This document shows, piece by piece, positions 12,457 through 25,056 of a DNA stretch of 52,231 nt. Both the position numbers and the translations under genes were made by a program. The stretch's first letter is position 1. Each line of letters begins with the position of its first letter. The stretch spans positions 1-52,231 of the forward strand of contig JAUNHY010000002.1 in the NCBI GenBank assembly GCA_030523715.1. Direction: 5' to 3'. The notes beneath the pieces were generated by a model. The model searched no databases and was not told the origin of the DNA. It worked only from the letters and a program-made list of their open reading frames with translations. This DNA is from Candidatus Saccharimonadota bacterium (GTDB lineage: Bacteria; Patescibacteriota; Saccharimonadia; Saccharimonadales; Saccharimonadaceae).

Positions 12457-13479
12457 ATGCTAGTCTCCGATTATAATTACGATTTACCCGAAAAATGTAT
12501 CGCTAAACGTCCGCCAAAGGTACGCGGTACTACTCGTTTGCTCGTTTTAAATCGCAAATCTGGTCAAATAACTGACTCCCATTACGCTGATCTAGCCGAT
12601 TTTCTCGAACCTGGAGACTTAATTATCTTAAACGATACTCGTGTTATGCGCTCACGTGTTTTTACTGAGCTACCAGATGGTCGTCCTCGAGAATTAGTTG
12701 TTCTAGAGAAACATGATGGTGAAATCGACCATGTTATGTACCGCGGCAAACTTCATGCCGGCGACATACTTACCGTCAAAAATATCAACGACGATTCCAG
12801 AACCACTGACACTATCGCCATTAAAGAAATTCTTGGCAACGGCACCGCTACTATTACTTCCAGCCGCGACATCACTAAAATCGTCGCCGATTACGGCAAT
12901 GTCCCGCTTCCACCATATCTACATCGCGATGCCGATGCGGACGATATTAAACGCTATCAAACCGTTTGGGCAAAACAGCTTGGCTCCGCCGCCGCTCCTA
13001 CCGCCAGTCTTAATATGACCAAATCTCTTATGCAAAAACTCCAAGAAAAAGGTGTTCAAATTCGATATCTTACTCTTCATGTTGGCCTCGGCACTTTCCT
13101 TCCAATTCGCACCGACAACGTCGAAGAGCATCATATGCATTCCGAATGGTTTCACATCCCTACAGAAACTGTAAAAGCCATTGAGGCCACTAAGGCCGCT
13201 GGGCATCGCGTTATCGCAGTCGGCACAACCGTTACCCGCACTCTTGAATTTTGGGCAAAAACCGGCAAGACTGAAGGCGAAGATAATATTTTTATTTATC
13301 CAGGCTTTAAATTCCAGGCAATCGACGCCCTCGTCACCAACTTCCACGCGCCAAAATCTACCGTCCTCATGCTGACGGCCGCTTTCGCTGGATGGGATCA
13401 TCTAAAACCAGCCTACGAACACGCCACGCAAACGGGCTACAAGTTACTGAGCTACGGCGATTCTATGTTGATTTATTAG
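12457..13479 (+). CDS. queA: S-adenosylmethionine:tRNA ribosyltransferase-isomerase QueA
   Basis: 340 residues, normal length. QueA transfers the ribosyl part of SAM to preQ1 in tRNA, giving epoxyqueuosine. Family motifs are visible: YDLPEKCIAKRPP at the N-terminus, NDTRVMRSR near 60, HVGLGTFLPIRTDNVEEHHMHSEW near 200-225 and the C-terminal TNFHAPKSTVLMLTAAFAG and YGDSM. tgt, which acts one step earlier, lies 2 kb downstream on the same strand. The 3' end overlaps the convergent surface-protein gene by four bases. Confidence 0.97.
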   Translation: MLVSDYNYDLPEKCIAKRPPKVRGTTRLLVLNRKSGQITDSHYADLADFLEPGDLIILNDTRVMRSRVFTELPDGRPRELVVLEKHDGEIDHVMYRGKLHAGDILTVKNINDDSRTTDTIAIKEILGNGTATITSSRDITKIVADYGNVPLPPYLHRDADADDIKRYQTVWAKQLGSAAAPTASLNMTKSLMQKLQEKGVQIRYLTLHVGLGTFLPIRTDNVEEHHMHSEWFHIPTETVKAIEATKAAGHRVIAVGTTVTRTLEFWAKTGKTEGEDNIFIYPGFKFQAIDALVTNFHAPKSTVLMLTAAFAGWDHLKPAYEHATQTGYKLLSYGDSMLIY

Positions 13480-15374
13480 TTTTCTTCGCAAGTCAAGGTA
13501 TTATCTACGTCGGCACCTATTTGAATTTTTATATTCGATAGCACACCCGTAAAATGCCTAATCGGTACACCATCTTCCACTGATGCCCCAACCCAAGATG
13601 TTAACTCAAAGAACTCATTGTGGTTATTAAAGTTGTTCACGAATATTGGTGCGCCATTATTAATTTGATAGCAAAAGTTCATATTTTTTCGTATCAAAGC
13701 TATCTGCGTCACGCCGGCCATTGGAATATATATCTTTTTATTCGATAGCTTCACACCGTCTTTTACTACATTCGAGCCAAGTACGAAATTATTAGTGTTA
13801 TTATCTCGTCGCAAAACTATTCCCGGCCATTGCCTACTTTCGTCTTCCAAAGTAGCATTGAACAAAGTCGCCCGATAAACTAGATTAGATGGATTTAGTT
13901 CATCAATATTAAAGCTGATTAGAAAATCTTTTCTGTAATCGTCTTCACTAAATAGGCCGACCCCCGTATCTATATACGTATTATTAGAGTATTGTTCGCA
14001 GCCATCGCCCGAAATATTCATATTTGGCCCGTTAAATCTACACGCGCCATTAAACTCAAACGCAGTATGTATTATTTCTTCGTAAATCGGGCCAATCTCG
14101 ACATCACTCTCCATTTCGAAGCTAATTTCGTCTGACGTGACATCATTGCTCCACTTTTTAAACACAAACCCTTCTCGCTCCTTGGCTTTTAGGGTGATCG
14201 TTGTGCCGTAGTAATATTTTTTACTCTCAAAATTACTATCTATATATTCTGCATTGGTTAAGGTTAGCTCATACTGCTCTCTAGCATATAAATACTCAAC
14301 CTCCATTTTTCCATCACCCGTTATGGTCTTTGTCTGCGTTTGCGGAGAAACAAAATGCTCATAAGTCTTAACTCCCGGCGTAACATTAGCGCCCGTCGTT
14401 CCCCTCTTCTCTTCTATTTCAGGATCGTCATAATCCTCGCCGTTCACTTTCATTTTTTTATGCAAAACTTTATACAAAGTGTCCGTATTCGGCGTAAAAG
14501 TCGCCTCAAGCGTCAAATCACTATTAATTGAGGCACCAAAGTCAAATGGCTCATCATTCGAAATCCAACTATCAAATGTATATCCTTCTTTACTCGGGTC
14601 ATCAGGAGCAGATATCGAACCACCATAGTCTATTATTTGCTCACTCGTATTTGTGCCATCAAATATACTCACTATTACGCGATCATTTAGATGATAAGTG
14701 CTATTAATTATTATTTCCTCAAAGGTATCGGATGCATTCACTACAACCGGTATAGAAACCATCATAGCAACCACAAGAATTGCGGACCCGAATATTTTTC
14801 TTCTCTTATTAAAAATCAATGCCACAGCCAAACCTGCACAGAACAGGAAAGCGATAACTAATATACTCTTAAAACTATCCCAGGTTCCCGGATTAACAAT
14901 TTCATCTTCAGGCACCGAGTATTTTATTATTAGTTTTACAGATGAATCCTGGTCACGTTGCGTAAGATTCTCTAATCTATTTGTATATTCCGCACGCAAA
15001 ATAATATCAAGCTCTCCTGAGGCGTCAATTACTTCGCCGTCATAATCATCATCTAGTTCATAGTTTATATAGTCATTGTCATTTTCGACCAAAATATCGT
15101 TAATCGTATAATCTTTAGAATCTGTATTTAGAATTTTTAAGCTATAAGTAACACTATCCTGAACTTTATGAAATGTTAATTCTTGTTCGATTTCAGAATC
15201 GCTGAATGTAGATATTCCACCCTCAATCGAATCTGACTGTTCCGCTATCATAGCGTCATCGACAATCAAAACGCCAGCCGCATAAACAGCGGAATTTCCA
15301 AAAAGACCAATAACAACAGCCATTAATAATGACAAAATAATCCATCGTACTTCTTTTAGTCTCACATACGCCAT
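13476..15374 (-). CDS. Cell-surface protein with InlB B-repeat-like and lectin-like domains
   Basis: About 632 residues. Order: signal peptide or first TM (about 10-30, ending VYAAG), a Ser/Thr/Asp-rich region, an internal TM with Lys/Arg after it (about 175-200), a second hydrophobic segment (about 205-222), then Listeria-Bacteroides (InlB B) type repeats (DYGGSISAPDDPSKEGYTFDSWIS near 255-275; YYGTTITLKAKEREGFVFKKWSND near 390-415). The C-terminal part (about 450-632) looks like a concanavalin A/LamG-like fold. Such proteins often mediate adhesion. The ATG at 15374 is preferred over a TTG eight codons upstream because a TATAAT box (15387-15392) covers the region in between. Confidence 0.8.
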   Translation of the reverse strand: MAYVRLKEVRWIILSLLMAVVIGLFGNSAVYAAGVLIVDDAMIAEQSDSIEGGISTFSDSEIEQELTFHKVQDSVTYSLKILNTDSKDYTINDILVENDNDYINYELDDDYDGEVIDASGELDIILRAEYTNRLENLTQRDQDSSVKLIIKYSVPEDEIVNPGTWDSFKSILVIAFLFCAGLAVALIFNKRRKIFGSAILVVAMMVSIPVVVNASDTFEEIIINSTYHLNDRVIVSIFDGTNTSEQIIDYGGSISAPDDPSKEGYTFDSWISNDEPFDFGASINSDLTLEATFTPNTDTLYKVLHKKMKVNGEDYDDPEIEEKRGTTGANVTPGVKTYEHFVSPQTQTKTITGDGKMEVEYLYAREQYELTLTNAEYIDSNFESKKYYYGTTITLKAKEREGFVFKKWSNDVTSDEISFEMESDVEIGPIYEEIIHTAFEFNGACRFNGPNMNISGDGCEQYSNNTYIDTGVGLFSEDDYRKDFLISFNIDELNPSNLVYRATLFNATLEDESRQWPGIVLRRDNNTNNFVLGSNVVKDGVKLSNKKIYIPMAGVTQIALIRKNMNFCYQINNGAPIFVNNFNNHNEFFELTSWVGASVEDGVPIRHFTGVLSNIKIQIGADVDNTLTCEEN

Positions 15375-15386
15375 AATAATACTTTT

Positions 15387-15392
15387 ATTATA
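15387..15392 (-). promoter_or_regulatory. -10 box of the surface-protein gene
   Basis: TATAAT on the minus strand, 12 bases before the ATG at 15374, which predicts a leader of about six bases. Confidence 0.5.
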
Positions 15393-15429
15393 AAACAAAC
15401 CGCTTATGATGCAAAGATAATTGTATTTT

Positions 15430-17757: not shown

Positions 17758-17786
17758 AAAATTCCCCCTCTTGGGGGATATTTTTT
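17758..17786. terminator. Bidirectional terminator between the AI-2E gene and cysS
   Basis: CCCCC (17764-17768) pairs with GGGGG (17773-17777) around TCTT, with A-rich sequence before and T-rich sequence after. Confidence 0.8.
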
Positions 17787-19143
17787 ATTTAGCGTATTGC
17801 CAGATTACTCCATCTGCCCCATCGAGTAACGTAATACCTTTAGCTTCAATCTCATCACGCAAAGCGTCTGCTTTTACGTAATCTTTATCTTTTTTAGCCT
17901 GAATTCTGTCACTTATTTTTTGTTTCAATTCATTTGGTATATCTGGCGTAGTCTCTTCTATCATAAGGCCAAAGGCATCGTCCAAAAACTTCACAAACGC
18001 ATCATCTGGTACATTTTTGCTAATAGATTTATCCAGTTCCGCAAAAGCTCCCGCCGAGTTTAAATTATTATCCAATTGCGTCTTGATGACGTCACGTATA
18101 TCATTCATATCAGTAGCATCTTTTTGCCAACGTAACGCTGCAAAATTACGATAATTCAATAGACGCTGCTTCGCCGCCGCAATATCTTCGAACGAAAAAT
18201 TACGCTCACTCTGGAAATGCCCCTGCAAAACCCACATTTTATAATCCATATGCGAGTAACCTTTCTCGGCCAAATCATTAAACATATATACGTTGCCAAG
18301 CGATTTCGAAATTTTCTGCCCCTCAATCGTAATAAAGTTATTGTGCAACCAAAAATTAGACATCTTTTTGCCGAACGCGCCTTCAGTTTGTGCAATCTCA
18401 TTCGTGTGATGCACTGGAATGTGATCAATGCCACCGCAATGAATATCAATTGGCTCTCCAAGTTTCTCATGAATTATCGTCGAGCACTCAAGATGCCATC
18501 CCGGATACCCCATCCGTCCACGATACTCCCACTGCATCGCATGATCTTCGCCATCGCGAATCCATTTCCAAACTGCAAAATCTGACGGATTCCGTTTCTC
18601 TGAACTAAACTCTACGCGCGCGCCCGCCTTCAAATGCTCTAAATCCAGCCGCGCAAAATCGGCATAGGTCGGAAACTTCGAAGTATCAAAATACAAACCA
18701 TCTGTCGTATCATACAAAAAGCCTTTCTTGTCCAATTCATTAACAAGCGCAATATCCTCTTTGATATAGTCTGTCGCACGGCAAATATCTGTCGGTTCTA
18801 CCATATTTAATGCCCGGAAATTATTTAGGTAATCGTTCATATACATTTCTGCGACTTCCCAAACCGTCTTACCATCACGCTTTGCACCTTTTTCCATCTT
18901 ATCTTCGCCATCGTCGGCATCAGAAGCAAGATGGCCTACATCCGTAATATTTAGAACACGATCTACCGACCAACCATTCAGCCGTAATGTACGCACAAGC
19001 AGATCCCAATAAATATAACAAGTAAAATTCCCAATATGGGCAAAACTATATACCGTCGGTCCACAAGTATAGACTTTTACCCTTTTTGGATTAATAGGGC
19101 TAAATTCTTCGACTCTACGAGTCAGGGTATTATATAGTTTCAT
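17785..19143 (-). CDS. cysS: Cysteinyl-tRNA synthetase
   Basis: 452 residues, normal length. The HIGH-type motif is FAHIGNF after the zinc Cys in VYTCGPTVYS, the central CGGIDHIPVHHTNEIAQTEG segment carries further zinc ligands, and the second signature reads KISKSLGN. The frame is open 29 codons further upstream, but that part does not resemble CysRS. The ATG at 19143 begins the family consensus MKLYNTLTRR and is preceded by a well-placed leaderless promoter, so 19143 is the start. Confidence 0.97.
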   Translation of the reverse strand: MKLYNTLTRRVEEFSPINPKRVKVYTCGPTVYSFAHIGNFTCYIYWDLLVRTLRLNGWSVDRVLNITDVGHLASDADDGEDKMEKGAKRDGKTVWEVAEMYMNDYLNNFRALNMVEPTDICRATDYIKEDIALVNELDKKGFLYDTTDGLYFDTSKFPTYADFARLDLEHLKAGARVEFSSEKRNPSDFAVWKWIRDGEDHAMQWEYRGRMGYPGWHLECSTIIHEKLGEPIDIHCGGIDHIPVHHTNEIAQTEGAFGKKMSNFWLHNNFITIEGQKISKSLGNVYMFNDLAEKGYSHMDYKMWVLQGHFQSERNFSFEDIAAAKQRLLNYRNFAALRWQKDATDMNDIRDVIKTQLDNNLNSAGAFAELDKSISKNVPDDAFVKFLDDAFGLMIEETTPDIPNELKQKISDRIQAKKDKDYVKADALRDEIEAKGITLLDGADGVIWQYAK

Positions 19144-19174: not shown

Positions 19175-20692
19175 TTATACGAGCAACAATATGAAAATGA
19201 AGAATGCAATCGGGAAAACAAACATCGCAATCATAAAGATAATAATAATCATTAAAGGATTAGAAGATTGGTTATCGCGCACTTGCACTCTACCATTTCG
19301 GGTTCGTATCCCCTTTATCTTATAATCATTCCTATCGTACATCTGCGAATATCTTGAACCATGAACTGCCGAAGCATAAAAATCTTCTTCCACGACATTT
19401 TTTATCGCCGCAGCGGTATCCTTTTCATGCATATGCCGTGCCGTCTTATTCTTATATTCGTTAGATTTAACTGCCACTATAACTCCAGCGATTAGAGCCC
19501 AAAAGAATGCCACTATAGATAATAACATCTGGAGATACGATAGACTGATGAAGCCATCAATTGCTAGCGAGATAATTTTCAGAGCAATTGCCATGCCGAC
19601 ACATACTGTTGGAACTACCCCTACCCAATGCCATACTTTATTCTTTTCTACCGGCACACTGCCAACTAATTCGCCCGTTCGTCCATTCACGGCCACATAA
19701 TGTAGGACCGCGCTTCCGTCTTTTTTCTTGTCTAAGTAACTATACAACCAAACTGGTAGATATGCAGTTTTCCACTTTACGCCCTTCTGTTCAAGCTGCA
19801 TCCTATCCCAACGCACGCCGCGATCATAGAAAGAAATCCAATCACGCATCCTATACCGCATAATATCTTCTACTTGCAGCTTAACCAATTTATCCAACTC
19901 TTTGATGTCAACATCACGTTTTTCAAAGGCAAACCCCGTCGTATAGCGCGCATCCCATTTCACAGCATTTTGCGTATCGAATGGCATAATCGCACTAACA
20001 ATATTGTTCGTGTTAACCGATATGTCTTGATTAAGTTTATCAGCGGATGCCTCTATCGTTAAATCATCAACAATCAATTCAAATTTTCGGCCCACATTAT
20101 ATATATCTGCATCATAACGCCACTCAGCATCATCGCCAGAACCGACCATATATCTCCGCGTCTGATGTTCTCCAACGCCAGCCATCTCCGCATGGACATT
20201 CATATCTACTACCATATATGGCAAATAAACGCCCATTAAATTATCCTCGCTAAACTGGTCCGCGAATTCCTGCTTACATAAAGTTCTATGATCCTGCACA
20301 AATTTATTCATCAAACGATGCGCTGCCCTACGCGACAATTTAAATGGCAAAATCATATCGGGTACTGCCCCATTTGGCAATTTATCGTTAATCGACAGCG
20401 TATTGCGGCACCAAGGACATCTTGCCGTCAAAGCCTCAGAAGTATTAACGGATACCTCGGACCCGCAGGCCGAACACTTAAGTGTCACCATTACTTTTTC
20501 ATCGATAATTTTCTCGGCACCCTTACCAACAATTTTGCCTTTAAGCAATAACACATTGTCACGTTCGTTCCCTAATTCAGGCTCAAAAACACTGCGGCAA
20601 TATCTACATTGCAGTTTTCCTAGCTTTTGGTTTAGCGTAACATCCGAGCCGCCACAGTTCGGGCATCTTTCTATACTATTTTTTATTGTCAT
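19175..20692 (-). CDS. Zinc-ribbon membrane protein, paralogue 1 (YdjG-like)
   Basis: About 505 residues from the ATG at 20692; the 13 codons upstream overlap the previous gene and add nothing family-like. Two zinc ribbons open the protein: CPNC...CRYC (about 10-30) and CSAC...CPWC (about 65-90). A long conserved domain follows (VPDMILPFKLSRRAA to TAYLPVWLYSY, about 105-325), shared with paralogues 2 and 3. Then come two or three membrane helices (about 345-410) and a last one at the C-terminus. It overlaps the upstream paralogue by 17 bases. In Bacillus the related YdjG and YdjH anchor the SPFH protein YdjI at the membrane, and I infer the same role. It is last in the four-gene operon. Confidence 0.85.
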   Translation of the reverse strand: MTIKNSIERCPNCGGSDVTLNQKLGKLQCRYCRSVFEPELGNERDNVLLLKGKIVGKGAEKIIDEKVMVTLKCSACGSEVSVNTSEALTARCPWCRNTLSINDKLPNGAVPDMILPFKLSRRAAHRLMNKFVQDHRTLCKQEFADQFSEDNLMGVYLPYMVVDMNVHAEMAGVGEHQTRRYMVGSGDDAEWRYDADIYNVGRKFELIVDDLTIEASADKLNQDISVNTNNIVSAIMPFDTQNAVKWDARYTTGFAFEKRDVDIKELDKLVKLQVEDIMRYRMRDWISFYDRGVRWDRMQLEQKGVKWKTAYLPVWLYSYLDKKKDGSAVLHYVAVNGRTGELVGSVPVEKNKVWHWVGVVPTVCVGMAIALKIISLAIDGFISLSYLQMLLSIVAFFWALIAGVIVAVKSNEYKNKTARHMHEKDTAAAIKNVVEEDFYASAVHGSRYSQMYDRNDYKIKGIRTRNGRVQVRDNQSSNPLMIIIIFMIAMFVFPIAFFIFILLLV

Positions 20693-22169
20693 TGTTTTGC
20701 CCCACCGGCTTATCTTCTGGCTTCGACCCAAACATGCGGTCTATTCCTAAATAATTAGCCATTTTTTCGCCCATCATTTCTTTACCATTAGTAGCAATCG
20801 TCCCCTTAATAACACTATCGTTCTGGCCAATAATACGAGAATTCGACAAGCCTTTCCTATGTTCGCGCAAATTATCAGATTTCTTAAGATTCTTCATCTC
20901 GGATTTAGTATTCGCTTCGTGCTTATGACGCTTATCCATATTGCGATATTTGCTCATCTTAATCCAATAAAAGATGAAACCAGGAGTCAAACCGGCTAAG
21001 CCAAATAGCCATGGATTATCGTCATCCGTATCCACACCAAGCCAAAATCTTATCCACTGAAAACCGAGGAAAATACCAATAACTTCAATAATTCCAGATA
21101 TAATTCTTAATTTAGTCTTATTTATCGGTACACTTCCCATCACTGCACCGGTTCGCGCATTTACCGCCACATAATGCAATAGCTTTTTATCCTCTTGGTA
21201 ATAGCTATATAACCAGACTGGCAGATACGCCGATTTCCATTTCGTACCTTTAATATCGACTTTTTCATTCGTCCATTTTGCGCCACGATTATAGAAAGTC
21301 ATGCTTTCCTTAACTTTATAGCGCGCCACATCGCCCACCTGCGCTTGCATCACCGGCTTCAAAAGATCGATATTTGCATCTCTTTTCTCGCTCGAGAAGC
21401 CGCGTAAATAAGCCGGATTCCAGCCGACGCAATTTTCCGTATCAAACGGCATGATTGCATTAATCACGTTATTTGTATTCGTCTTCAGGTCTTGATTTAG
21501 CTTATCAGACGACGCTTCGACGGTTAAATCATCAACAAACAAATCAAATTCGCGCGACACATCATAAGCATCCGCATCATATTTCACCCTACGAGAATTG
21601 CCAGATCCGACAGTATATTGTCGCACCAAATGTTCCGCCTCGCCAGACATCTCTGCGTGCGCATTTACATCTACAACCATGTAAGGCAAGTACGCCCCCA
21701 AAATATTATCGGTTTTAAATTCCGTCTTAAATTTCGGATGCGCAAAAAACTGTCTTTTGCCAACAAATTCATGAATTTTCGCTTCGGCTTCTTCTTTCTT
21801 TGTCTTAAATGGCAAAACTAAATCTGGGACAGCGCCATTCGGCATTTTTTCGTTAACAGACAAAACATGGCGGCACCAGTGACAGCGCGCACTCGTCACT
21901 TCATCGGTATTAATCACGACTTCTGCGCCACAGGCTGGACACTTTAAGGTCAAAATCGTGTTTTCGTCTGGAATAATATTGGTCGCGCCCTCACCTATAA
22001 TCTCGTCTGTCAAGTCCTCAACGCCGCCATAGGCATTAGCACTCTGGTCGTCAAATAAAGTGCGACAATACTTACACTTCAGTTTGCCACTATTAACATC
22101 AAGCTCTATATCGGTAGCGCCGCATTTTGGACATCGATTTGCGCCATTCTTATCATTCTTTATCGCCAT
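20676..22169 (-). CDS. Zinc-ribbon membrane protein, paralogue 2 (YdjG-like)
   Basis: 497 residues, same plan as its neighbours: CPKC...CKYC (about 13-37), CPAC...CHWC (about 76-99), the shared central domain ending SAYLPVWLYSYYQ (near 325), two membrane helices (about 355-410) and a basic Lys/Asn-rich C-tail with no final helix. The tail difference from paralogues 1 and 3 suggests that the three form a hetero-oligomer in which only some C-termini return to the membrane. It starts 12 bases after the stop of paralogue 3. Confidence 0.85.
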   Translation of the reverse strand: MAIKNDKNGANRCPKCGATDIELDVNSGKLKCKYCRTLFDDQSANAYGGVEDLTDEIIGEGATNIIPDENTILTLKCPACGAEVVINTDEVTSARCHWCRHVLSVNEKMPNGAVPDLVLPFKTKKEEAEAKIHEFVGKRQFFAHPKFKTEFKTDNILGAYLPYMVVDVNAHAEMSGEAEHLVRQYTVGSGNSRRVKYDADAYDVSREFDLFVDDLTVEASSDKLNQDLKTNTNNVINAIMPFDTENCVGWNPAYLRGFSSEKRDANIDLLKPVMQAQVGDVARYKVKESMTFYNRGAKWTNEKVDIKGTKWKSAYLPVWLYSYYQEDKKLLHYVAVNARTGAVMGSVPINKTKLRIISGIIEVIGIFLGFQWIRFWLGVDTDDDNPWLFGLAGLTPGFIFYWIKMSKYRNMDKRHKHEANTKSEMKNLKKSDNLREHRKGLSNSRIIGQNDSVIKGTIATNGKEMMGEKMANYLGIDRMFGSKPEDKPVGQNNDNKK

Positions 22170-22181
22170 TATTCCTCCCTT

Positions 22182-23705
22182 TTAATAATCGTAGCTATAA
22201 TCGAAGCCACCTGAATCATAATCAAAATCGTAATCAGAGCCACCCCAATCGTAATCATAATCATAGCTGGAGCCGTAATCATAGTCCCATCCAGAATCAT
22301 AACTCGACGAACCGCCACCTCCGCCAGAACCACCCCCCGCAAAAAGCAATATCAACAATAGAATTACAATAAAGATAATAATGCCAGCTAAGTTACCGCC
22401 TGAGCCACTCGAACTATTACGTTTAGCCTGCGTATAATTACTACCTGTCTGAAAACGATTTTTCTCGACAGCCAACATTTCGTTGCGTCCAGTCGATAGA
22501 GCACCAATCACCCGATTATCATTACGCTTATAAACCTCTTTACTATATGATGTTCCGCTCGATGATGTTAAATCATCCTTTTGAGTTAATTCTTCAATTT
22601 TTGCATTAGTTTCTATTTCGTGACGATGTCGTGAAATATTTTCCGTCTCTACATAATGGCCATTTCCTGTCGCCAATGGCAAACAACCGACGGTCTCACC
22701 CGTACGTGCATTTACAGCCACATAATAGATCCGTGGATCGCCTGCAAACTTCGTATGGTAACTGTACAACCAAACTGGTAAATAAGCCGACTTCCACTTC
22801 GTGCCCTTAATACCCAGGTGTTCTTTTTCCCAACGTACCCCACGATCGTACTGAACAGTTGTCTCTTTTGCTTTACGGCGTCCAATGTCTCCAGATTGCA
22901 GCGCCACAACCTCTTTAAGGCTATTAACACTTACATTACGCTTCTCACTCGAAAAACCTCTCAGATAATTTGCATCCCAGGCCGCCGCGTTTTCCGTATC
23001 GAACGGCAAAATTGCATTAATAATATTATTTGAATTAATATATGTACCTTGATTAAGGCGCGCAGCCGATGATTCTACTGTTAAATCATCTACCAAAAGC
23101 GTAAAATTACGCTCAATTTCATAAGTTTCTATTCGCCATGGTGGCGTAACTTTATTCTTATCCAGGTTTATCTCGGCTTGCCCACGCATTTCCATACGCG
23201 CGTTTACGTCCACAATCATAAATGGGAAATAAACACCATCGACGCCACGCTTATCTAGCTCATCTATAAATCCTGGCGCTATATTTTCACTTCGACCACT
23301 GATGCACTTTCGGACTTTTTCTATCGCCTCTTCTTTCGTAATCTTAAACGGTAAGACCAAATCCGGAACTGCACCATTCGATACTGCTTCATTGACAGCA
23401 AAAATATGACGACACCAGTGACAACTAGCATCGGTTGACTCGTCGGTATTTATTACGACTTCGGCACCGCAAGAAGGACACTTAAATGTTTTTACGATAT
23501 CGTCGCCAGGAATAATATCTTCCGCACCCGCCCCGCGCGTTTCCCCTTTCATCCCCTCGACGCCACCATACTCATTTGCACTTTTTGCTTCAAAAAGTGT
23601 CTTACAATAAGCACATTTAAGCTTTCCTTCTTTTGCGTCCAGCGCTACATCGCTAGACCCGCAATGCGGGCAGCGATGTAGGCCATCTTTCAGCTTTTCA
23701 GCCAT
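22182..23705 (-). CDS. Zinc-ribbon membrane protein, paralogue 3, with Tyr/Asp/Gly tail
   Basis: 507 residues. Zinc ribbons CPHC...CAYC (about 12-36) and CPSC...CHWC (about 76-99) and the central domain match paralogues 1 and 2. The internal membrane pair is missing; a Gln/Asn/Ser linker leads to one helix (about 439-456). A 51-residue tail follows: first Gly/Ser, then about 11 Tyr and 12 Asp mixed with Gly, Trp and Phe, and no Lys or Arg. It looks like a low-complexity, phase-separating or adhesive tail; which side of the membrane it is on depends on topology I cannot settle. It is the second gene of the operon, 18 bases after the SPFH gene. Confidence 0.85.
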   Translation of the reverse strand: MAEKLKDGLHRCPHCGSSDVALDAKEGKLKCAYCKTLFEAKSANEYGGVEGMKGETRGAGAEDIIPGDDIVKTFKCPSCGAEVVINTDESTDASCHWCRHIFAVNEAVSNGAVPDLVLPFKITKEEAIEKVRKCISGRSENIAPGFIDELDKRGVDGVYFPFMIVDVNARMEMRGQAEINLDKNKVTPPWRIETYEIERNFTLLVDDLTVESSAARLNQGTYINSNNIINAILPFDTENAAAWDANYLRGFSSEKRNVSVNSLKEVVALQSGDIGRRKAKETTVQYDRGVRWEKEHLGIKGTKWKSAYLPVWLYSYHTKFAGDPRIYYVAVNARTGETVGCLPLATGNGHYVETENISRHRHEIETNAKIEELTQKDDLTSSSGTSYSKEVYKRNDNRVIGALSTGRNEMLAVEKNRFQTGSNYTQAKRNSSSGSGGNLAGIIIFIVILLLILLFAGGGSGGGGGSSSYDSGWDYDYGSSYDYDYDWGGSDYDFDYDSGGFDYSYDY

Positions 23706-23723
23706 TAAAATCGAATTCCTCGA

Positions 23724-24923
23724 CTAAGCAGCGGCTGGAGTTTCTGGTTCTGCTGGAGCAGCGGCTTGTTCAGCTGGTGCAGCCGGAGCGGCTGGAGCTG
23801 GAGCAGCAGCTTCGCCACCACCAATAGGGGTCGTCAGGCTTCCTGCGCCACCCATCTGATTGATAGCCATACCCATACCAAACATACCAGTAGTACCACC
23901 ATTGCCACCCTGGTTGTTGCCAGCAGCTTCGAAGCCACGAGCAATCGTTGCCTGAGAGTAAGCAGCACCAATGCGACCACCATCTTTGGCCATTTCTTCG
24001 CCAACCATACCCATAGTCTGAGCTTGTGCCATACCAGAGAGCATCGTTGCGTTGAATTGTTCGACCATTTGTGCGGACTTTTCGTCCCAGTCGAGACCAA
24101 GTGGCTGCACATTTACGACTTCGAGACCATACTTAGTACCCCATTGGAAGTTAGCTTCAACAGCTTCGTTGACATTCTTGGCAAACTCAACCGTACCGCC
24201 CTGAATATCGTCGATTGACTTACCGCCCTTAGTATAGGCAGAAAGTGCTGCCGCTAAGGAGCCTACAAAGCCCGAAAAGAGCGAATCCTCTACGCCACCA
24301 GTGTCGCCTTCACCGCCAAGCTCGAAAATACCACGACCCTGACCAGATACGATATCAACAGGTACTAAATTCTTGAATAAGAGAATTGGATCCACAACCT
24401 TAATCGTGTAAGTACCATTACTCGTTACGGAAAGCATCAAACCACGATAGTTACTATCCTTATAGCGAATTACATTTTGCGTACCATAGCGAAGACCAGC
24501 TACATCTTTCAAATTTACGTAGTAAGCTTGCTGTTGGTTGCCTGGCTGACCGCCAAACTTAAACTGGTTCCAGCTCTGGCCAAAGGTCGAAGCAAAGAAG
24601 CCATCACCAGCAAACATGCTTTTAGCTTCTGGAACATTCTGAGTAGTGTAAGTATAACCACCTGGTTCAGCGATAACGGCAGTAATACCACCATTCTCTA
24701 CCGTAATCAAACAGGTGCCTTCTGGTACCATAAACTTACTACCGTCGGAAATGACACTGGCGTTCTCCTCGCCATCATTATTTTCACTTCCGTTAACCTT
24801 TACAGGTGTAGCACGTGCCAACAATACGTGATCGCGCATCGAGGCTGGTGGTGCCATATATTCGAGCCACTGGTTGGCAAAGCTGCCACTGAGAGCGCCC
24901 GTAAAAGCTTTAATAAAGCCCAT
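23724..24923 (-). CDS. SPFH-domain protein, YdjI-like
   Basis: 399 residues. Matches the virion-core/YdjI-type branch of the SPFH (stomatin-prohibitin-flotillin) superfamily: N-terminal GFIKAFTGALSGSFANQW, then SDGSKFMVPEGTCLITVENG, the SPFH core (about 60-290), a helical stretch with AQMVEQFNATMLSGMAQAQTMG, a Gly/Met/Asn-rich segment and an Ala/Pro/Glu tail (about 365-399). SPFH proteins form membrane-associated rings or scaffolds. In Bacillus YdjI works with the zinc-ribbon proteins YdjG/YdjH to bring PspA to the membrane. It leads an operon with three such zinc-ribbon paralogues. A strong AAGGAGGA Shine-Dalgarno is present, so this operon is leadered. Confidence 0.88.
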   Translation of the reverse strand: MGFIKAFTGALSGSFANQWLEYMAPPASMRDHVLLARATPVKVNGSENNDGEENASVISDGSKFMVPEGTCLITVENGGITAVIAEPGGYTYTTQNVPEAKSMFAGDGFFASTFGQSWNQFKFGGQPGNQQQAYYVNLKDVAGLRYGTQNVIRYKDSNYRGLMLSVTSNGTYTIKVVDPILLFKNLVPVDIVSGQGRGIFELGGEGDTGGVEDSLFSGFVGSLAAALSAYTKGGKSIDDIQGGTVEFAKNVNEAVEANFQWGTKYGLEVVNVQPLGLDWDEKSAQMVEQFNATMLSGMAQAQTMGMVGEEMAKDGGRIGAAYSQATIARGFEAAGNNQGGNGGTTGMFGMGMAINQMGGAGSLTTPIGGGEAAAPAPAAPAAPAEQAAAPAEPETPAAA

Positions 24924-24956: not shown

Positions 24957-25008
24957 TATCCAATATTGATATGCATAAGTAATTTGAGCAAATAATTTAC
25001 TCAGACTA

Positions 25009-25056
25009 CAAAAAACATCTCTCTGTTGCGTTTAAGCCACAAGAAAGATGTTTTTG
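25009..25056 (-). terminator. Terminator of the pyrophosphatase gene
   Basis: On the minus strand AAAAACATCTTTCT pairs with AGAGAGATGTTTTT across a loop of about 18 bases and ends in a T run, 14 bases after the stop at 25070. Confidence 0.65.

Follow-up and report, generated by a model that had tools for sequence, protein, structure and literature searches.

An SPFH gene with three differentiated YdjG-like paralogues and no PspA in a genus of gut Saccharibacteria

Results

The window analysed here, a 52,231-nucleotide stretch of a Candidatus Saccharimonadota genome (GCA_030523715.1, contig JAUNHY010000002.1), carries on its minus strand a compact unit in which an SPFH gene is followed by three tandem anchor paralogues, here called A, B and C. 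The SPFH scaffold gene (399 aa; 23724–24923) lies 18 bp from paralogue A (507 aa; 22182–23705), and A lies 12 bp from paralogue B (497 aa; 20676–22169). Paralogue C (505 aa from its ATG; 19175–20692) overlaps B by 17 bp, and its reading frame also allows a TTG start at 20731. A hairpin followed by a U run (minus strand, approximate limits 25008–25056; −27.0 kcal/mol for a 90-base stretch) separates ppa from the SPFH gene. A consensus scan did not pick it up, but it probably terminates ppa transcription, in which case the four genes would start a transcription unit of their own. A promoter scan, the observation that bears on sigma-W stress control of the kind known for pspA-ydjGHI, gave matches at chance level. 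Downstream, 31 bp from the unit, lies cysS (17785–19143, minus strand), a constant neighbour in the genus that is not thought to belong to the unit. Further along the same strand, beside tgt, a 640-aa open reading frame (13476–15398), with a hydrophobic stretch at its N-terminus and segments resembling repeats, may encode a surface protein; homologues recur at the same site in several loci of the genus.

The SPFH protein scored 46.8 bits with the profile Band_7_1 (PF13421), whose cut-off is 24 (E = 3.5e-12). Its AF2 model (mean pLDDT 73, built on 52 aligned sequences) retrieved 47 PDB chains at E ≤ 0.001, with stomatin, HflK/C and prohibitin leading and flotillin also present (best E = 4.8e-8), in agreement with the YdjI-like SPFH protein described in the first-pass annotation. 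Hydropathy gave no peak that would mark a membrane helix in this protein. Its C-terminus is an Ala/Pro/Glu-rich tail, the type found in Saccharibacteria, at the place where relatives have SHOCT or a zinc ribbon; unlike B. subtilis YdjI, it contains no CxxC and hence no C-terminal ribbon. Among the aligned carriers, SHOCT ends the protein in 33 of 52 (it was noted earlier as a common companion of PF13421; PMC3581485), zinc ribbons do so in Enterococcus, and GYF_2 does so in two. A second, shorter SPFH-type reading frame of about 255 aa lies outside the window in the same genome (G000:C5:19844-20008); its PF13421 match is limited to profile positions 154–208, and similar frames occur in much of the class.

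The three anchor paralogues can be aligned along the full length of the core (BLASTP E = 2e-131 and 8e-150), with pairwise core identities of 44–52%. Each has eight zinc-ribbon cysteines forming two four-cysteine ribbons, at C12–C34 (23604–23672) and C76–C98 (23412–23480) in A, C13–C35 (22065–22133) and C77–C99 (21873–21941) in B, and C10–C32 (20597–20665) and C73–C95 (20408–20476) in C. All eight are invariant in an alignment of seven proteins from five lineages, including homologues from Enterococcus, Comamonas, Vibrio and Paracoccus. Each protein continues with a YdjG-like core, and the membrane endings differ by hydropathy: A has one C-terminal helix (residues 439–457; 22335–22391; hydropathy 3.28), B a helical hairpin, and C both a hairpin and a helix at its C-terminus. 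These data confirm the original description of three tandem two-ribbon paralogues with a shared core and different membrane endings. The AF2 model of B (pLDDT 83.9, pTM 0.82) shows the ribbons together with long beta strands, and places the membrane hairpin near residues 351–409.

Pfam and NCBIfam contain no family for the anchor core, with sub-threshold matches to the ribbons alone, and Foldseek returned no significant match of the core in the PDB. The VIA-align rows for the anchor model were mostly due to the membrane hairpin, and assignment of the core to a known fold was rejected. A weak structural match to the C-terminal domain of YpeB (5boi; Z 3.1, rmsd 4.9, 81 residues) may hint at the YpeB-related, NTF2-like domain of YdjG-type anchors. 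When the B model was compared with viral structures, two giant-virus proteins annotated as DnaJ-like subfamily C member 3, from Yasminevirus (E = 4e-9) and Edafosvirus (E = 3e-6) were matched, the sole significant fold matches found for the anchor model. An anti-phage role was also rejected, as the PADLOC matches were weak and ribbon-sized.

The published description gives YdjG a pair of zinc ribbons, a YpeB-related domain and a membrane segment; YdjH has a TPM domain, and the operon's SPFH protein is of the band-7 type with a C-terminal zinc ribbon (PMC11237479). By this domain description, all three paralogues are YdjG-like and none is YdjH-like; the sequence comparator was the Enterococcus homologue (E = 2e-30). 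None of them shows the TPM profile (PF04536), which is absent from the entire genome. TPM does occur in several related genomes of the genus; four of these also have the anchors (G016, G029, G032 and G035), and there it lies on a different contig from the SPFH-anchor operon. The earlier suggestion that the two Bacillus anchors were here expanded to three therefore has to be replaced by multiplication of the YdjG type.

Phylogenetic analysis of the anchors, by a quick method with a midpoint root and several long branches, resolved A as a firm clade (SH-aLRT 100, 33 rows). The C copies clustered less firmly, while B copies had shorter branches and lay nearest the single-copy relatives. In one subgroup of the genus (L056-L066 and L071; for example, L065:8498-10642) the B anchor reaches about 700 aa and has an extra membrane helix; its C-terminal part of roughly 150 aa, of no recognised family, is predicted to lie outside the membrane. 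A very diverged anchor-like gene with three CxxC motifs and an extremely long branch sits between A and B in L058 (L058:8483-9862).

Paralogue A ends in a 50-aa tail (22182–22334) made mainly of S, G, D, Y and W, with GFDYSYDY preceding the stop codon. In the 28 tailed A copies, 42–69 residues follow the last membrane helix (S 41%, G 21%, D 15%, Y 9%, W 6%), and all end in GF[DST]Y...D[YW], 18 of them exactly in GFDYSYDY. In 20 of the 45 genomes of the genus, the DNA pattern for this peptide plus stop was present exactly once, adjoining the anchor genes, and a reversed-control pattern had no match. Because the peptide is a single anchor-adjacent copy with an empty control, and synonymous codons vary between genomes, it appears to be under selection. 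A genome-wide sorting signal was rejected, given that no genome has more than one copy of the coding motif and that each copy lies by the anchor genes. The A copies of L072 and L074 have no tail. Since the A protein of the window has a single membrane pass by hydropathy, and if its ribbons are cytosolic as assumed, the tail would lie outside the membrane.

PspA (PF04012) had no match in the window's own genome (95% complete) or in any of the 45 genus genomes, whereas 9 of 14 control genomes, B. subtilis among them, were positive. The missing PspA reported from the operon's immediate surroundings thus holds for the genome and for the genus, and no pspA was found elsewhere with this profile. Across the class, PspA exceeded the cut-off in 2 of 147 genomes.

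Anchors were present in 41 of 45 genomes of the genus, in 2 of 78 genera of the class and in 1 of 247 genera of a phylum sample. Two nearly complete genus genomes (G006 and G009) have none, so the unit is dispensable. Wherever the named records state a source, it is the gut or rumen of animals such as sheep, goat, cattle, deer and horse. Within the genus the position is fixed (gapA-ppa-[SPFH-anchors]-cysS-AI2E-tgt), and the sister genera examined keep cysS-AI2E-tgt wholly or partly and have no unit. Most genus loci have two to four anchor copies; two Saccharibacterial loci (L083 and L084) have one. Conservation of the four-gene order across Saccharibacteria, which the first-pass annotation had proposed as a check, was not seen; the order is confined to one genus, with a variable number of anchors. 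G107, the second genome of the class sample with anchors, has its own pair at a different site, and the SPFH protein there is more distantly related (E = 4e-75), which suggests independent acquisition. Two records labelled Nomurabacteria have a single-anchor version. One of them (L130, labelled Candidatus Nomurabacteria) shares the cysS-AI2E-tgt order common to Saccharibacteria, so its label may be wrong; its anchor ends in an Asp/Tyr-rich tail. Among Patescibacteria, then, the pair is almost confined to one genus, and the novelty there is an anchor in two to four differentiated copies. No relevant paper on SPFH, stomatin or PspA in Saccharibacteria emerged from a literature search.

Outside Patescibacteria, a tblastn search of plasmids placed the anchor next to an SPFH gene in Enterococcus, Comamonas, Vibrio and Paracoccus. 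The Enterococcus gallinarum locus (L001) has an SPFH protein homologous over its full length (E = 7e-39) and a homologous anchor (E = 2e-34). It differs from the window in having a single anchor, zinc ribbons at the SPFH C-terminus and a TPM gene in third place, after the SPFH and zinc-ribbon genes. When 84,980 species genomes were scanned with the three paralogues, at least 79 loci emerged, drawn from the best 80 matches and hence a sample that leans to close relatives. Among the matches listed, 75 loci have contigs that reach far enough, and in 74 of them the SPFH gene lies directly 5' of the anchor, mostly no more than 10 bp away. Carriers are found in, among others, Clostridia, Bacilli, Actinobacteria (Actinotalea, Homoserinimonas), Bacteroidales and Methanobrevibacter.

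The loci of Clostridia, Actinotalea, Methanobrevibacter and others (L086-L132) share with the window the SPFH-then-anchor order, and their anchor cores are mostly 45–49% identical to those of the window. In contrast to the window, they have one YdjG-like gene each, as do carriers outside the genus generally, and a mostly SHOCT-ended SPFH protein, with no S/G/D/Y/W tail in those read. Neither PspA nor TPM was seen in the flanks of the loci from the genome scan, the PspA check resting on three seeds, and PspA exceeded the cut-off somewhere in 6 of 40 pair-carrying genomes outside the genus (genomes without a completeness figure). As the pair occurs without PspA nearly everywhere it was found, this is its ordinary state, and the absence of PspA, which had been taken as distinctive of the window, is not.

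Discussion

The closest characterized relative of the unit is the B. subtilis pspA-ydjGHI operon, which likewise combines a helix-free YdjI-type SPFH protein with a YdjG-type protein of two ribbons, core and membrane helix (PMC8581546, PMC11237479). There, YdjI is probably soluble, both YdjI and PspA depend on YdjG and YdjH for their membrane localization, and membrane fluidity changes when ydjI is lost (PMC8581546). The window differs in having neither PspA nor YdjH, in placing the SPFH gene first rather than last and in carrying three YdjG-like genes. Caution is needed in transferring the anchor role to YdjG-like proteins, because the two-hybrid contacts reported are those of YdjH with YdjI and PspA, with no YdjI contact reported for YdjG (PMC8581546). 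Given the distribution of the pair, the B. subtilis operon looks like one elaboration of a two-gene SPFH and YdjG-like module.

More distant parallels, supported by the fold match, are the complexes Flotillin/NfeD, QmcA-YbbJ and HflK/C-FtsH, in which an SPFH protein also works with a membrane partner. In contrast to the protein described here, those SPFH proteins bear a membrane segment of their own, and their partners are unrelated to zinc-ribbon anchors.

With moderate confidence, we interpret the unit as a PspA-independent membrane scaffold of the SPFH/YdjG type whose anchor was duplicated and specialized in one genus of gut Saccharibacteria. This interpretation builds on fold, co-occurrence, position and conservation. 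The product of the four genes is most likely a hetero-oligomeric membrane scaffold. By analogy with solved SPFH proteins, the SPFH subunits may assemble into a ring or cage at the inner face of the membrane, where the zinc-ribbon and core part of the anchors would hold them, as YdjI needs YdjG and YdjH. B would represent the ancestral anchor type, with A and C adding membrane contacts, and A would place its Ser/Gly/Asp/aromatic tail outside, perhaps touching wall or envelope material. The complex probably organizes a patch of membrane and, with no ESCRT-III-type partner, shields it during envelope stress; we infer that the likeliest function is that of a stand-alone membrane-integrity complex.

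A more specific version assigns the tail a ligand. Here the module is an old, PspA-independent one of bacteria and archaea that became a hetero-oligomeric transmembrane assembly in gut Saccharibacteria, where one anchor exports its aromatic, acidic low-complexity tail and the conserved end of that tail binds a specific partner outside the membrane. We put this forward tentatively and think it rather doubtful.

Decay of a larger system is an unlikely explanation. In this scenario, an ancestral pspA-ydjGHI envelope-stress system lost PspA and YdjH in Saccharibacteria and left a partly functional remnant, which would account for SPFH and anchor proteins with the domain make-up published for YdjI and YdjG (PMC11237479), and for SPFH, zinc-ribbon and TPM genes still standing together in Enterococcus. 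However, in several phyla close relatives carry just the two genes, with neither PspA nor TPM in the vicinity, and few genomes anywhere in the class have PspA, so there is no sign of a recent loss; duplication and specialization are, moreover, unlike decay.

The first-pass annotation had connected the unit to life attached to a host cell, and the tail of A gives this idea its most concrete form: A would act through the exported aromatic tail at the host-bacterium interface of an epibiont. The membrane helix of A, the exported-looking tail behind it with a terminus conserved across the genus, and the near restriction of the unit to this genus within Patescibacteria all speak for such a contact-site or surface complex. 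Yet a tail of 42–69 aa may not span the wall, relatives L072 and L074 do without it, and nearly all other Saccharibacteria have no unit at all. Many bacteria and archaea that are not epibionts carry the pair (Clostridia, Actinotalea and Methanobrevibacter among them), so nothing ties the pair to epibiosis. We consider a contact-site role improbable; at most, A alone might have one.

Also improbable is a regulatory or nucleic-acid-binding complex whose ribbons bind DNA or RNA and are tethered to the membrane through the SPFH scaffold: DNA binding has been suggested for YdjG (PMC9239133) and the ribbons score best against TFIIB-type and other transcription-factor ribbons, but all these matches fall below curated cut-offs, zinc ribbons commonly bind proteins too, and the pair has no constant regulatory neighbour.

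Work on YdjGHI treats the SPFH-anchor module as an accessory of PspA. The comparison made here separates the module from PspA: the pair stands alone in most carriers found, archaea and minimal genomes included. Because it occurs apart from PspA, the role of SPFH scaffolds by themselves can now be tested. The SPFH and anchor pair itself is widespread; peculiar to this genus are the duplication and, on one of the copies, an odd tail that looks exported. The duplication thus offers a natural experiment on the way in which SPFH complexes gain an outside-facing part.

No constant third partner of the pair was found in other phyla. A multi-helix protein of 150–194 aa adjoins it in a few Clostridia and Bacilli. 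In Paracoccus (L004:2266-6984), the pair is preceded by a toxic anion resistance (TelA-type) gene and a DUF2927 gene, neighbours hinting at a connection to tellurite-type stress operons.
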